64,000 bases of DNA. Origin: Flavobacteriaceae bacterium. Lineage in GTDB: Bacteria; Bacteroidota; Bacteroidia; Flavobacteriales; Flavobacteriaceae. The stretch lies in contig JAQXBT010000013.1 in assembly GCA_029252265.1 (NCBI GenBank), positions 1 through 64,000 of the forward strand, written 5' to 3'. The notes below the pieces were generated by a model. The model did not search any database. It saw nothing but the letters and a program-made list of their open reading frames with translations, and had not been told where the DNA came from. Made by a program: the position numbers and the translations under genes. Of this stretch, positions 2,123-8,333 are shown piece by piece (position 1 is the first letter of the stretch; every line of letters begins with the position of its first letter).

Positions 2123-3172
2123 TTAACCTTTATTATATTGGTTATTATAATAGAACTGATACGCTCCGCTCGTCACATTTTTTAGCCAAACATCATTATT
2201 TAAATACCAGTCGATGGTAATAGCCAAACCTTCTTCAAAAGTAACGGTGGGCTCCCAACCTAATTCATTTTTTATCTTTGAAGCGTCAATAGCATAACGC
2301 AAATCATGCCCTGGACGGTCTTTTACGTAGCTAATTAGTTTTTCTGAATCGCCTTTCGGTCGACCGAGTTTTGCGTCCATTTGTTGACACAACACCCTTA
2401 CTAAATCTATATTTTTCCACTCGTTGAATCCACCGATATTGTAGGTTTCTTTATTTTTTCCTTTGTGAAACACTAAGTCAATAGCTATTGCATGGTCTTT
2501 GACATATAACCAATCCCTTGTGTAATCGCCGTTTCCATAGACTGGAAGTGGCTCATTGTTTATAATATTATTAATAAATAGCGGGATTAATTTCTCTGGA
2601 AATTGATTCTGCCCATAATTATTGGAGCAGTTTGTAATTACGTAGGGCATGTTGTATGTTTCTCCGTAAGATCTTACAATGTGATCTGAACTCGCTTTTG
2701 AAGCCGAATAAGGCGAGTTTGGGTCATAGGGAGTCGTTTCCGTAAACAGTCCAGTTTGTCCTAATGTTCCGTAAACTTCATCGGTGCTTACATGATAAAA
2801 TAATTTGTCCTGAAAATCACCTTGCCAAGTGTTTCTAAAGGCGTTTAACAGAATCGTCGTCCCAAGAATATTTGTTTTAATAAACGCTAAAGGATCTTTG
2901 ATGGACCGATCGACGTGAGACTCGGCCGCTAAATGGATAACGCTGTCAAACTTGTGTTTTTCAAACAGCTCGTTTATGAAGCTCTCGTCCGTAATATCCC
3001 CTTTAATGAAGGTGTAGTTTGACTTGGATTCAATCGTTTTTAAGTTCTCTAAATTGCCCGCATAGGTTAATGCGTCTAAATTATAAACGTGATACTGTGG
3101 ATACTTTTCTACAAATAAGGTTAGGACATGCGAGCCTATAAAGCCAGCTGCCCCCGTTATTAAAATAGTCAT
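2123..3172 (-). CDS. rfbB: dTDP-glucose 4,6-dehydratase
   Basis: A 349-residue extended SDR enzyme that converts dTDP-glucose to dTDP-4-keto-6-deoxyglucose. It shows the NAD-binding GAAGFIGSH at residues 7-15, the HVSTDEVYG motif with Thr/Asp/Glu catalytic residues, and YSASKASSDH with the Tyr/Lys pair. Its ATG overlaps the stop of the upstream Wzz-like gene in an ATGA, tying O-chain length control and rhamnose donor synthesis into one transcript. Confidence 0.96.
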   Translation of the reverse strand: MTILITGAAGFIGSHVLTLFVEKYPQYHVYNLDALTYAGNLENLKTIESKSNYTFIKGDITDESFINELFEKHKFDSVIHLAAESHVDRSIKDPLAFIKTNILGTTILLNAFRNTWQGDFQDKLFYHVSTDEVYGTLGQTGLFTETTPYDPNSPYSASKASSDHIVRSYGETYNMPYVITNCSNNYGQNQFPEKLIPLFINNIINNEPLPVYGNGDYTRDWLYVKDHAIAIDLVFHKGKNKETYNIGGFNEWKNIDLVRVLCQQMDAKLGRPKGDSEKLISYVKDRPGHDLRYAIDASKIKNELGWEPTVTFEEGLAITIDWYLNNDVWLKNVTSGAYQFYYNNQYNKG

Positions 3173-4242
3173 ACAGTCGTTTTATATTTTTCTAAAAATT
3201 TAAAAAATTCAAGTCCCAATAAAACAATGTAGGCAAGTAAAAACAAGACGATGGTATAATATAACTTAATATTAAGTTGTTTTCCAAAAAGGGTCTTGGT
3301 ATTGCTCGCAAACCCGGAGTCTTGCTTATTAGAAATGGTTTCAATGATAAATTGCTTATCCAGTAATTCTCTTTCTATTTCTACCAATTCACTCCTCAAC
3401 ACCAAATCACTTTGGTATAAATCGTATTCTTTGGTTTTATCGGTTTCGCCTGAGCCTTCAAAAGTGATGCCAATTTCAGAAGCTTTATCCGAACTCAGTC
3501 CTTGTTCTAAAACGCGTTTGTAAGTGCTTTGAAGCGAATCTGATTTAACCAGTGCTAATTCCAAACCTTCCTTGGTTTTGTTGAGACCTGCAATGTCTTT
3601 GTTCTGCTCGTTTATAAAAAAAGGATTGGAGTTAATGGACTCAACAATACTTTCAAAAACAGATTTAAAACTATTTCTTTGAGTCGAATTGATCTTTACT
3701 TGCTGATATTTGTGCGTGTAGTCTTCATTGTTTTGCAAGAAGTCTTCATACTCAATTTTGGTTGCAGCCAAGGAATCTAGTTTTTTAACGTAATCGTTAA
3801 ACGCCAAAAGTTTGTCGTTTTCACTCACCACTGGTTCTACTTGAAATGATATAATCGATTCAGCCTTCTCTTCCTCTAAATTTAAAACTGATCCTAGAGT
3901 TTGAAAATCCCCTTGTCTTACCAAATCGTTGTAGTAACTTACGGAGTTATATAGGTTTTCTCCTGTTGGATAATTTTGCACAACGGTCACCGAAGACTCA
4001 TATTTAGGTGCTGCCGATTTACTGTTTAACACCCCATAGACAAATCCCAAAATCGCCGCTAATGCAAGAATAATAAGTCTTTTTTTTACGAAAAAAACGA
4101 GCCATACAAATGCTAAGAAAATGCTCTTAAAAATGTTATATATAAAGTTAAAAAAACGATCAAAGGCATTTCCAATAAGCTTAAAAAGTTGTCCTAAATC
4201 AACTTCTTCTGAAGTGTTGGGTGTATTTGAATTTGTACTCAT
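3169..4242 (-). CDS. Wzz-type polysaccharide chain-length determinant-like membrane protein
   Basis: A 357-residue protein with the two-helix topology of Wzz/polysaccharide co-polymerases. A hydrophobic N-terminal stretch at about residues 40-75 (FKSIFLAFVWLVFFVKKRLIILALAAILGFVYGV) is followed by a long polar, coiled-coil-prone periplasmic part and a closing helix (YYTIVLFLLAYIVLLGLEFF) near residue 330. No kinase domain follows, so it is the membrane module only. Known family members set the chain length of O-antigen or exopolysaccharide. Position directly ahead of rfbBACD supports the same role here, but no polymerase or flippase is in the window. It starts 6 nt after the DUF6909-like gene. 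Confidence 0.75.
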   Translation of the reverse strand: MSTNSNTPNTSEEVDLGQLFKLIGNAFDRFFNFIYNIFKSIFLAFVWLVFFVKKRLIILALAAILGFVYGVLNSKSAAPKYESSVTVVQNYPTGENLYNSVSYYNDLVRQGDFQTLGSVLNLEEEKAESIISFQVEPVVSENDKLLAFNDYVKKLDSLAATKIEYEDFLQNNEDYTHKYQQVKINSTQRNSFKSVFESIVESINSNPFFINEQNKDIAGLNKTKEGLELALVKSDSLQSTYKRVLEQGLSSDKASEIGITFEGSGETDKTKEYDLYQSDLVLRSELVEIERELLDKQFIIETISNKQDSGFASNTKTLFGKQLNIKLYYTIVLFLLAYIVLLGLEFFKFLEKYKTTV

Positions 4243-4248
4243 AATCTA

Positions 4249-5934
4249 CTAATTAAAAATCTGTTGTAAAATTTGTTTGGTAATTAAATACGTTGGTTTG
4301 ACTCCACTTGATCCAAGCCCCCCAGAAGCCAATGTACTCCCTGTTTCGAGAGGGTTATCACTCGCATAATAAGCGTACCGTACTTTGACATTCGGGTTAA
4401 TACTGTGTCTTACCTTAGAGGCTGCTTGTATCGCTTTTTGATAATGAGCGCCCTCCATCTCCAGCCCAATAACATTCCAGGTGGAGTCGTGGAAAAACTT
4501 TAAAAGATCTTTATTTTGAAGAGATGTGCCCAAAACAGTCACCATCGTGCCTTCAAATGCTCTTAAATCTTTGGTATCAAAATCTTTAAGAGTTAACTCA
4601 TTTTTAAAAGGATAATTATCTGCGGTGCCTTCAAAGATATGAGCCGAGGGTATCATAATATCTCCTTTTGATCCTTCTAAAATCCCTGCCTTACCCATGA
4701 TAGAAATAGAATCTACGTTAAGGTGAATATTCCTATCAGCGGTTTTAAAAGGCTTTAACAGTTCATCAATCGTTTCATAGGCTTGCTCCCCAAAGGCGTA
4801 GTCCATTACAATAATAACGGGCGCATCTTTTGTGCTATCTAACTTGAATGATGTGTTTGAAAAATCGACCTTTGATGTATCAAATATTTGAACATCTATA
4901 TTGGTGCCTGAAGAGTCTTTTATGTCAATCATACCTTCTTGCAACGCTAATTGTTTCGTTTTGTTGCGAAGAGCTTGGTTTTCTTCTTTACTCAATTGCT
5001 CATACACCGTAAAAATATCATGTTTAGAACATAACGTTTTAAGGGCTTTGGGCGCATGAAGCGTATTCATTACACTGTGTAAGTTTGCCGAAATAATATG
5101 GATTGGACGATTGAGTAATTGGTGTTTCTGAAGCGTTTCTTTAATGGTGTTCGCCCAGACCTCTCCATGAATATGGTGTCCCAACCGCTCTCTAAGAACG
5201 GGACTAAAACTAATCGTTCTTTTAGAATTATCAACAATCTCTTCAATCGCACGCTTTCCGAGCCAATAAATGAGGTGTAAAAAATGGTCTGGTTGAGAAG
5301 GTGTCGAAAATTGATCGTAGACCTCTAAAATTTCTTCAAACGTTCGGCCTAAGATATTTCCGGTATGAGTAATGGCTAACTCACGTTCTTTTTGATTTAG
5401 TTTTTTCTTTGAAAGCACTGCCGTTTCCAGTTTAACCCAGTCTCTTGTGGTGGTTCCTTTGTCATCGATCACAACACGTTTTGCAATTTTATGAGACTCA
5501 ATAAACATAAATGTTAGATGCGTCAAGATATCATAAATCTCCGAACGTCCACGAGTGATCTCTATGTTCATTTGTTCAAAGTCGATACGGTAACAATCTC
5601 GTCGCCTTTTAGAAGGGATAATTACTTCAAAATGAGAATTACCAAATCCTTCAGCACTCGTTAAGTTGATTAAAATGCACTCTTCGATGCCCAGGGGCAG
5701 TCGGTCAACAACATAAAGCAACCCTTCTAATTCTGTCTTATCGCCTGCAATAGACCCATAGATTTCAGGTTGTAATTGAAGTAATGCTTGACGCAACGTT
5801 TCTCCAGAGACCCCCATTGGCTTATAGAACCCTCTGTTAAATAAGTGACGCATGGTCAAATACATGCGCTCAATCGCATGAGAGCTTTCTTGAGCCCTGG
5901 TGCGTATGATATTTTTAGTTTGATTTTGTTTCAT
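4249..5934 (-). CDS. DUF6909-like protein with nucleoside-phosphorylase-like C-terminal half
   Basis: A 561-residue cytoplasmic protein with no signal peptide or membrane segment. I recognise it only as a conserved Bacteroidota protein, probably DUF6909. The N-terminal 350 residues are mixed and helix-rich and match nothing I know. The C-terminal 190 residues carry an ordered set of motifs typical of the purine nucleoside phosphorylase/MTAN fold: GKAGILEGSKGD (compare the GvaG...vGD loop), a GTS segment, GLEMEGAHY with the paired acidic residues at 492-494, and YYASDNP with Asp at about 526. Function is not established; a nucleoside or nucleotide substrate is my inference. It sits 18 nt after the GH3 gene and 6 nt before the Wzz-like gene. 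Confidence 0.6.
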   Translation of the reverse strand: MKQNQTKNIIRTRAQESSHAIERMYLTMRHLFNRGFYKPMGVSGETLRQALLQLQPEIYGSIAGDKTELEGLLYVVDRLPLGIEECILINLTSAEGFGNSHFEVIIPSKRRRDCYRIDFEQMNIEITRGRSEIYDILTHLTFMFIESHKIAKRVVIDDKGTTTRDWVKLETAVLSKKKLNQKERELAITHTGNILGRTFEEILEVYDQFSTPSQPDHFLHLIYWLGKRAIEEIVDNSKRTISFSPVLRERLGHHIHGEVWANTIKETLQKHQLLNRPIHIISANLHSVMNTLHAPKALKTLCSKHDIFTVYEQLSKEENQALRNKTKQLALQEGMIDIKDSSGTNIDVQIFDTSKVDFSNTSFKLDSTKDAPVIIVMDYAFGEQAYETIDELLKPFKTADRNIHLNVDSISIMGKAGILEGSKGDIMIPSAHIFEGTADNYPFKNELTLKDFDTKDLRAFEGTMVTVLGTSLQNKDLLKFFHDSTWNVIGLEMEGAHYQKAIQAASKVRHSINPNVKVRYAYYASDNPLETGSTLASGGLGSSGVKPTYLITKQILQQIFN

Positions 5935-5952
5935 TGGTCGTACAAATATAAG

Positions 5953-7455
5953 CTAAATAGTCTGATTATTTTTAATCAGGGTGTCCGCTATTTTTCGATC
6001 GTTAGATAATCGCGGTGTTTTGTTCTGCCCGCCTAGTTTACCAATCGTCTTCATATAATTTTGAAAACCGTCTTTTTTAACCTGAGTGATTTTTAAAGGT
6101 TTTAAAACTTTTCCTTGAATCAGATCCAGATAATAACTATTTTGAAGCTGCAACGCTTGATCGATTTTAAGCTCAAAATTCTCAATATCTGATGGCGGGT
6201 TTTCAAACTCAACAAACCATTCGTGAAAGGGAAGCCCTTCTGATGGCGCGATCTGAGGTGCCACCGTAAATTCACTCACACTGATGTCCGTCGATTTCAG
6301 AGCGCTTAAAAGCGATTGCTCAACTTCCTTTGCAATTACATGTTCTCCAAAAGCAGAAATAAAATGTTTAATGCGACCACTAACAATCACCTTAAATGGC
6401 GCTAAGGAGGTAAACTGAATTGTATCCCCAATATTATAAGCCCAAAGACCCGCATTTGTTGAGATAATCATCACATAATTAACCCCTATCTTGACGTCTT
6501 TTAATGTCAACCGTTTGGGTATTGGATCAAAAAAAGTGTCTGCAACGATAAACTCATAAAACATTCCAGAGTCTAACTGAAGAAGCATTCCTTGGTCATT
6601 TTGTTGATCTTGAAATGCAAAAAAGCCTTCGCTGGCAGGGTAAAGCTCTACACTGTCCACTTTTCGACCTATTAAGGTTTCAAATTTGGATCGGTAGGGT
6701 TCATAATTAACGCCTCCAAAAATAAAAAGACTGAGATTTTTGAAAATATCTCCTACTTTTTGACCCTTTTCATCAATTAGTTTCTCAAAATACATTTGAA
6801 CCCAAGAAGGAATACCTGCAATTACAGACATGTCTTCACCAACGGTTTCTTGAACAATCGTATTGACTTTCGTTTCCCAGTCTTCAATACAGTTGGTTTT
6901 CCAAGAAGGAAGTCGGTTTTTTTGAAGGTATTTAGGGACATAATGTGCTACAATGCCTGATAACCGCCCCAGTTGAATGCCGTTTTTGGTGTCAAGAACA
7001 GGACTTCCTTGTAAGAAAATCATTTTTTTAGTAACGATCTGAGTATTTCCTGTTTGATGAATGTATAATAAAATAGCACTTTTAGCCGCTTCTATATGGC
7101 CCGGCATGCTTTCTTTGGTGATTGGAATGTATTTAGCGCCCGAAGTTGTTCCGGACGTTTTAGCAAAATATAGTGGTTTCCCCTTCCAAAGAATGTCTGA
7201 TTCCCCCGCCACAACCTTTTCTACGTAGGGTTTCAAGGCTTCATAATCACGTACTGGTACACGCTTGATAAAATCTTCATGAGTGTTGATGTTGGTGAAA
7301 TCATGCTCCTTTCCAAATTGCGTTGAGCGCGCTTCTGAAATCAAAGATTGAAACACTTTTTGCTGTGTTTCAATAGGGTTGGAGGCCCATTTATTAATTT
7401 TATTATACGTTTTGGCCGCGTATAATTTTGCGAAGAACGCTTTAAGTGATGGCAT
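5953..7455 (-). CDS. GH3 auxin-responsive-promoter-family acyl-adenylating enzyme
   Basis: A 500-residue member of the bacterial GH3 family, part of the ANL adenylating superfamily. FAKTSGTTSGAKYIPIT at about residues 105-121 is the Ser/Thr/Gly-rich ATP loop, and LYPASEGFFAF is the later nucleotide-binding motif. Plant GH3 enzymes conjugate amino acids to acyl acids; the substrate of the Bacteroidota branch is not known to me. It follows the M23 gene by 11 nt and precedes the DUF6909-like gene by 18 nt, so the three are probably cotranscribed with the rhamnose genes. Confidence 0.88.
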   Translation of the reverse strand: MPSLKAFFAKLYAAKTYNKINKWASNPIETQQKVFQSLISEARSTQFGKEHDFTNINTHEDFIKRVPVRDYEALKPYVEKVVAGESDILWKGKPLYFAKTSGTTSGAKYIPITKESMPGHIEAAKSAILLYIHQTGNTQIVTKKMIFLQGSPVLDTKNGIQLGRLSGIVAHYVPKYLQKNRLPSWKTNCIEDWETKVNTIVQETVGEDMSVIAGIPSWVQMYFEKLIDEKGQKVGDIFKNLSLFIFGGVNYEPYRSKFETLIGRKVDSVELYPASEGFFAFQDQQNDQGMLLQLDSGMFYEFIVADTFFDPIPKRLTLKDVKIGVNYVMIISTNAGLWAYNIGDTIQFTSLAPFKVIVSGRIKHFISAFGEHVIAKEVEQSLLSALKSTDISVSEFTVAPQIAPSEGLPFHEWFVEFENPPSDIENFELKIDQALQLQNSYYLDLIQGKVLKPLKITQVKKDGFQNYMKTIGKLGGQNKTPRLSNDRKIADTLIKNNQTI

Positions 7456-7466
7456 TTTGGTTGGCT

Positions 7467-8333
7467 TTAAAAATCAATAAAAGTTGAAGGGTTTAACGGA
7501 GTTCCATTATACCATAATTCAAAGTGTAAATGGGGACCTGTACTTAATTCCCCTGATGTACCAGAAACGGCAATGACCTCACGGGATTTCACAAAATCAC
7601 CTTGTGTTTTTGTAAGTGACGAATTGTGTTTGTAAACTGAAATTAATTCATCGCCATGATCAATAATAATGACGTATCCTGTATCTGAAGTCCAAGAAGA
7701 AAAAATCACTCGGCCATCCGCAGTGGCTTTTACAGGGGTGTTTTTAGGGACAATTATATCAACCGCAAAATGTGTTTCATTAGGATCAAATACAGCACTC
7801 AAAGAGCCATTAACTGGCGGAAAAAAAACAAAGTTTGTAATTGACGTTGCAGTATCAAACAAGTTGTATTTATCTTCATTGTTTATTTTTTCTCTTAAAA
7901 TTGAATCCGCCTGAGAAGGTTTTAAGTCCAAAATAGCGGCGTCTGATTGAGCAGCCTTATAAATAGAATCTTTATTAATCTCAACCGCACTAACTTCACC
8001 TCGCAAAACGCTTTTGACAGAATTAATATAAACATCGTTCCTATTAATTACGTTTAACAAAGAATCAGTTTTAAAATCAAGAGTCATTGCTTGCTTTTGA
8101 AGAGACGTAGATGAATAGCCGGGTATGTACTCTCGAAGCGGCGTAAAAGCAATAATAACAGAGGTGATCGCGACTAGAAAAACGGCCACTAAAAAACTTA
8201 TAACAAACACATTAAGACGAGTTAGCTTAACCGCTAATCGTTCTTCAAAAGTATCTTCATTTAAAACCACTAAGCGATACTTATGAAGAAGTTTTTTTTT
8301 GAATTTCTTTTTTTCTGAGTTTTTTCTACGCAT
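7467..8333 (-). CDS. Membrane-anchored M23 (LytM) family peptidase
   Basis: A 288-residue protein with a very basic cytoplasmic N-terminus, one transmembrane helix at about residues 46-68 (VFVISFLVAVFLVAITSVII), a coiled-coil-prone linker and a C-terminal LytM domain. The zinc site looks complete: HFAVDI (HxxxD) and GPHLHFELW (HxH). Active members cut peptide cross-links of peptidoglycan; anchored ones act in cell division and elongation. It is the first gene of the 8.3-to-0 kb minus-strand run and is divergent from tatA. A TAATTTTG box ends only 7 nt before the ATG. Confidence 0.93.
   Translation of the reverse strand: MRRKNSEKKKFKKKLLHKYRLVVLNEDTFEERLAVKLTRLNVFVISFLVAVFLVAITSVIIAFTPLREYIPGYSSTSLQKQAMTLDFKTDSLLNVINRNDVYINSVKSVLRGEVSAVEINKDSIYKAAQSDAAILDLKPSQADSILREKINNEDKYNLFDTATSITNFVFFPPVNGSLSAVFDPNETHFAVDIIVPKNTPVKATADGRVIFSSWTSDTGYVIIIDHGDELISVYKHNSSLTKTQGDFVKSREVIAVSGTSGELSTGPHLHFELWYNGTPLNPSTFIDF

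Follow-up and report, generated by a model that had tools for sequence, protein, structure and literature searches.

The DUF6909 protein of this Flavobacteriaceae bacterium is, on balance, probably a stand-in for AMP nucleosidase (AMN), which is the most likely single reading of the evidence presented here, and it is quite likely an active hydrolase acting on a purine nucleotide. It is encoded at positions 4249-5934 (reverse strand) of the window, the whole 64,000-nucleotide stretch of DNA that was analysed. The region is one 561-aa open reading frame, which is the whole protein, and it matches Pfam DUF6909 (PF21850) with E=1.3e-61 and 209 bits versus a gathering cut-off of 27. PF21850 is a known family without an assigned function in Pfam, and a literature search found no paper naming DUF6909. 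Searching NCBIfam with the protein returned no family at E<=10, so that the AMP nucleosidase models TIGR01717, NF006142, NF005500 and TIGR01721 are all without a match at that threshold. PF01048 stayed below its cut-off (12.3 versus 25.1 bits), and its sub-threshold match spans residues 404-446, in register with the GKAG...GD motif. A defence or viral link was also considered and rejected, as none was found: PADLOC gave no match and PHROGs nothing credible.

The protein is divided into two domains:

Positions 4252..5112, reverse strand: C-terminal NP-I (PNP/UDP phosphorylase superfamily) domain, residues 275-561, recognised by predicted fold and profiles
Positions 5125..5934, reverse strand: N-terminal domain, residues 1-270, with no detectable relative

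The fold of the C-terminal domain and its membership in the NP-I superfamily are near certain. The AlphaFold2 model, which was built with 64 homologues, has a mean pLDDT of 78, with values mostly of 80-95 over residues 260-561. Comparison of this model with the PDB by Foldseek yielded 156 matches at E<=0.001, the best 50 of which are NP-I enzymes in every case, with the AMP nucleosidases 7uwq, 2guw and 1t8s at the top (8e-7 to 4e-6). Uridine phosphorylases (3e-6), purine nucleoside phosphorylases (3e-6) and an MTA phosphorylase come next, and TMt among the matches reaches 0.66. In a viral fold search, the sole significant matches were two giant-virus nucleoside phosphorylases. The initial annotation had placed a phosphorylase-like domain in the C-terminal ~190 residues; the PNP fold that it proposed is present in the model, but the domain is larger, comprising ~285 residues with a start near residue 275 and a first strand at residues 278-283. 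Glu494 and Asp526 directly follow the successive strands 488-492 and 517-524 of one beta-alpha-beta unit and, in this model, stand where the topology of the PNP fold puts its catalytic Glu and Asp.

At the sequence level, the relationship to the phosphorylase superfamily that had been suspected is significant only by profile-profile comparison with a combined superfamily profile. The C-terminal profile of DUF6909 was compared by hhalign with one profile built from PNPH, DeoD, UP-like, MTAN and AMN sequences together. In the first run the score was 45.2, against 14.3 +/- 2.6 and at most 24.7 when columns were shuffled 200 times; with enlarged sets it was 51.1 versus 15.0 +/- 3.2 for 40 column shuffles, with a probability of 93% and a P of 3.4e-7. 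The superfamily-level score thus corresponds to z~11 over shuffles, whose maximum over both runs is 27. Single-subfamily profiles match DUF6909 poorly (z 3.0 for AMN by itself; P 0.0034 for short AMN), and because no single subfamily is matched strongly, DUF6909 is regarded as a deep branch. The profile aligner pairs Met493-Glu494 with the superfamily ME and Asp526 with the Asp of SD, and an independent MAFFT alignment agrees on the Glu and the Gly in all families tested and on the Asp in short AMN, DeoD and MTAN.

The residues expected to form the active site are constant among the homologues compared. A scan of GTDB genomes supplied 80 close relatives, draws across the phylum and the class added more distant sequences, and conservation was counted in 131 aligned homologues with identity down to 53%. 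The following segments are used below:

Positions 5074..5091, reverse strand: SANLHS (residues 282-287), the loop after the first strand, invariant in the 131 homologues
Positions 4684..4695, reverse strand: GKAG (414-417), a glycine loop; GK[AC]G is otherwise found only in Bacteroidota short AMN
Positions 4612..4632, reverse strand: EGTADNY (435-441), corresponding to EGTSxxY of short AMN
Positions 4513..4533, reverse strand: LGTSLQN (468-474), invariant from residue 469 on, at the position of AMN Arg381/Trp383, both absent here
Positions 4450..4458, reverse strand: Met493-Glu494-Gly495, the putative ribose-contacting Met-Glu; the Glu shares its column with the Glu of AMN, DeoD and MTAN
Positions 4348..4362, reverse strand: SDNPL (525-529) with the putative purine-contacting Asp526, in one column with the Asp of short AMN, DeoD and MTAN; SDxP[LM] is of AMN type

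All the motifs noted earlier (M413-GKAGILEG-SKGD425, LGTS at 468-471, GLEMEGAHY and YYASDNPL with Asp526) are in place, and Glu494 and Asp526, the conservation of which had been put forward as a check, are invariant in all 131 homologues. The same is true of M493-E494-G495, G469-T470-S471, S525-D526-N527-P528-L529 and G414-K415-A416-G417 (131/131), as well as of S282, N284, H286, D378, G382-E383-Q384, D425 and E435-G436. The spacing of 32 between Glu494 and Asp526 is as noted initially, and the profile alignment shows ~9 extra residues between them.

Several of these segments are of AMP nucleosidase type. GK[AC]G is found in 20 of 21 short AMN and in 131/131 DUF6909 sequences, EGT[SA]xxY in 20/21 and 128/131, and SDxP[LM] in 21/21 short AMN, 12/12 two-domain AMN and 131/131 DUF6909 sequences, while none of the three is found in 46 DeoD, MTAN, UP-like or PNPH sequences; the three motifs were picked after the alignment had been seen. 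In the Klebsiella Amn site, which includes Met404, Glu405, Asp428, Arg381, Trp383 and Lys436, the last three are phosphate/base residues, and Asn205 also has a described role (PMC9584410). In the alignment, Met404, Glu405 and Asp428 are kept in DUF6909 as Met493, Glu494 and Asp526, while Arg381, Trp383 and Lys436 have no counterpart, the aligned stretch being LGTSLQN / SDNPLETGST. Asn284 may correspond to AMN Asn205, a placement made by hand after the first strand and not by the profile aligner, and the equivalence of His254 to AMN His188/Tyr189 is only a guess. In a mixture-model tree that contains long branches, DUF6909 and AMN share a branch (95/97). From motifs, tree and the genome distribution described below, the closest relative of DUF6909 looks to be AMP nucleosidase and not MTAN; the MTAN likeness proposed initially holds in general terms, and its more specific form gives way to AMN. 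We infer that DUF6909 works like AMP nucleosidase, but do not place it within the AMP nucleosidase family, because the sequence models do not recognise it and three site residues are missing.

The distributions of DUF6909 and AMN among genomes exclude each other. DUF6909 was searched for by PF21850 and the short AMN of Bacteroidota, identified as NF005500, by a Pontibacter AMN protein at E<=1e-20. Among 297 Bacteroidota genomes, DUF6909 was found in 44, AMN in 120 and both in 0 (17.8 expected); among 395 genomes of the class, the corresponding numbers were 32, 261 and 0 (21.1 expected), with neither gene in 102. Both draws together gave AMN in 0/53 DUF6909 genomes. The hypergeometric probabilities of zero overlap, 1e-11 and 6e-17, take no account of shared descent and are not usable at face value, as the genomes counted are linked by phylogeny, with at least four families mixed. 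Since four families (f5, f8, f56 and f100) have some members with DUF6909 only and others with AMN only, the exclusion is not one lineage split. PNPH is present in 27 of 33 DUF6909 genomes and 24 of 25 AMN genomes, so the exclusion does not extend to NP-I enzymes at large, and as MTAN is rare in both classes (3/33 DUF6909 genomes and 1/25 AMN-only genomes), the exclusion is particular to AMN; for the same reason MTAN was rejected as the enzyme that DUF6909 replaced. The exclusion shows that one gene occurs in place of the other, which is not a demonstration that either acts on AMP in these organisms. A locus at which one of the two genes had been swapped for the other in place was looked for, and none was seen. 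Among the genomes listed in one draw, DUF6909 is present in 31/31 of the same family (Flavobacteriaceae level). The gene apt was rejected as a constant partner, for it is found in only 6/17 DUF6909 genomes, that of the window included. In family f23, AMN-like matches at 30-36% identity lie inside ~400-aa open frames, which suggests, from sequence, that distant Bacteroidota have a further long form of AMN.

DUF6909 might instead be an NP-I nucleosidase that acts on another purine compound, such as MTA/SAH, 5'-deoxyadenosine, adenosine or a modified nucleotide, with the exclusion of AMN reflecting lineage history or an indirect metabolic link. We consider this unlikely, although it is the most serious of the alternatives. 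It is consistent with the loss of AMN Arg381/Trp383/Lys436 and with the AU test, in which a grouping of MTAN with DUF6909 was not rejected (p 0.29). Moreover, MTA/SAH nucleosidase (NF004079) was found in just 4 of 58 sampled class genomes, so that the majority must have a different way of clearing MTA/SAH, and some enzyme is required for this cleavage. However, DUF6909 does not track the loss of MTAN, and neither the AMN-type motifs nor the complete lack of overlap with AMN in the four mixed families would be accounted for.

The N-terminal domain raises a second alternative. In the model it consists of helices, a four-stranded sheet (88-93, 103-105, 115-118 and 123-126), a long helix (130-153) and more helices, and residues 10-275 modelled alone reached a pTM of 0.77. 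Foldseek of this domain alone against the PDB gave no significant match (best E 0.8), which bears out the initial proposal of a fusion to a new domain: the N-terminal ~270 residues are without a significant match to any solved structure. The N-terminal domains of DUF6909 and AMN look alike in topology, each with a small sheet of four strands next to a long helix, and in an "ITR + long helix" motif, but we do not claim that they are homologous (hhalign P about 0.4; AMN at Foldseek rank 15, E 2.0). That a domain so large, strongly conserved and rich in invariant Arg (110, 112, 116 and 130), with no known fold, is joined to an NP-I domain whose RxW segment is rebuilt could mean that DUF6909 catalyses nothing and is a nucleotide sensor or pseudo-enzyme, whose NP-I domain binds a nucleotide and whose N-terminal domain passes the signal on. 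This is improbable, for the catalytic Met-Glu and Asp are invariant in 131 sequences and exclusion with an enzyme, AMN, would be hard to account for. A true, phosphorolytic phosphorylase is more improbable still despite the fold common to UP/PNP, because the phosphate-ligand motifs GDPxR and R-hG[ST]xG (Arg24/Arg87-type), found in all DeoD/UP-like sequences, occur in 0/131 DUF6909 and in no AMN, and DUF6909 genomes are already supplied with PNPH, DeoD or UP-like enzymes.

We therefore favor DUF6909 as the stand-in for AMP nucleosidase. The PNP fold and the invariant Glu494 and Asp526 support the earlier suggestion that this uncharacterised Bacteroidota family is a nucleoside- or nucleotide-binding enzyme or sensor. 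We propose that, within the NP-I (PNP/UDP phosphorylase) superfamily, DUF6909 is a divergent nucleotide N-glycosidase and that in Flavobacteriaceae, as in several further lineages of Bacteroidota, it may take over from AMP nucleosidase. It would hydrolyse AMP, or a close purine 5'-nucleotide, to the base and ribose 5-phosphate, hydrolysis being inferred in preference to phosphorolysis. Asp526 may protonate the purine N7, Met493/Glu494 may hold the ribose, the GKAG and EGTxxxY loops may form the lining on the ribose-phosphate side, and regulation of activity or assembly may fall to the new N-terminal domain. A bolder version, which we offer as tentative, is that DUF6909 is a regulated N-glycosidase of purine nucleotides that had gone unrecognised, that its N-terminal fold is its own and its phosphate pocket rebuilt, that it repeatedly replaced AMN in Bacteroidota and that it responds to another effector, or acts on another purine nucleotide, than Amn does.

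Neighboring genes provide no functional link. In Flavobacteriaceae, the order M23 peptidase - GH3 - DUF6909 - Wzz-like 357-aa protein - rmlB/A/C is conserved (3169-8333 of the window, reverse strand), and DUF6909 and GH3 adjoin a polysaccharide cluster. A link from this order was rejected, as GH3-DUF6909-Wzz-rml is conserved only in Flavobacteriaceae; outside them the neighbors are unrelated, and the DUF6909 gene therefore works alone. GH3-type acyl-adenylating enzymes are able to release AMP, which makes a link to DUF6909 through this AMP possible but weak. Other NP-I proteins were seen in related genomes. A 462-aa protein of a relative (L168:70-1455, reverse strand) has a weak PNP_UDP_1 match at residues 182-386 (31.6 bits) behind ~180 unassigned residues and is another fused NP-I protein, by Pfam unrelated to DUF6909. 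A uridine-phosphorylase-like family of ~290 aa (L161-L164) is common in Flavobacteriaceae and scores 91 bits versus the uridine phosphorylase cut-off of 280.

With this assignment, an unnamed Flavobacteriaceae protein becomes a testable enzyme, and replacement of AMN by DUF6909 would account for the apparent absence of AMP nucleosidase in these bacteria. The NP-I superfamily gains a deep branch whose extra domain is new and of regulatory type, and the clean either/or pattern of DUF6909 and AMN makes the functional claim checkable.

Among known systems, MTAN shares with DUF6909 the NP-I domain with the ME pair and Asp and is a hydrolase, but it is without SDxPL, GK[AC]G, EGTxxxY and a large extra domain, and its Glu-Asp spacing is 23. 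The two-domain AMN, E. coli/Klebsiella Amn (TIGR01717; PDB 1t8s and 7uwq), is the top Foldseek match of the full DUF6909 model and, like DUF6909, has a C-terminal NP-I domain with an extra N-terminal domain, SDxPL and the ME pair; it differs in having GHCGG where DUF6909 has GKAG and in the Arg381/Trp383/Lys436 that DUF6909 is missing. Its N-terminal model PF10423 (AMNp_N) was above cut-off in 0/396 Bacteroidota genomes. The short AMN of Bacteroidota (NF005500 / TIGR01721, ~256 aa) has no N-terminal domain, keeps the NRRVWEH segment (AMN DDRNWE) that DUF6909 is without and has a Glu-Asp spacing of 23 versus 32, with whole-protein similarity under normal sequence detection. Nevertheless, both have the NP-I domain, the ME pair, GK[AC]G, EGTSxxY and SDxP[LM], both are without the phosphorylase Arg motifs, and their genome distributions are complementary.
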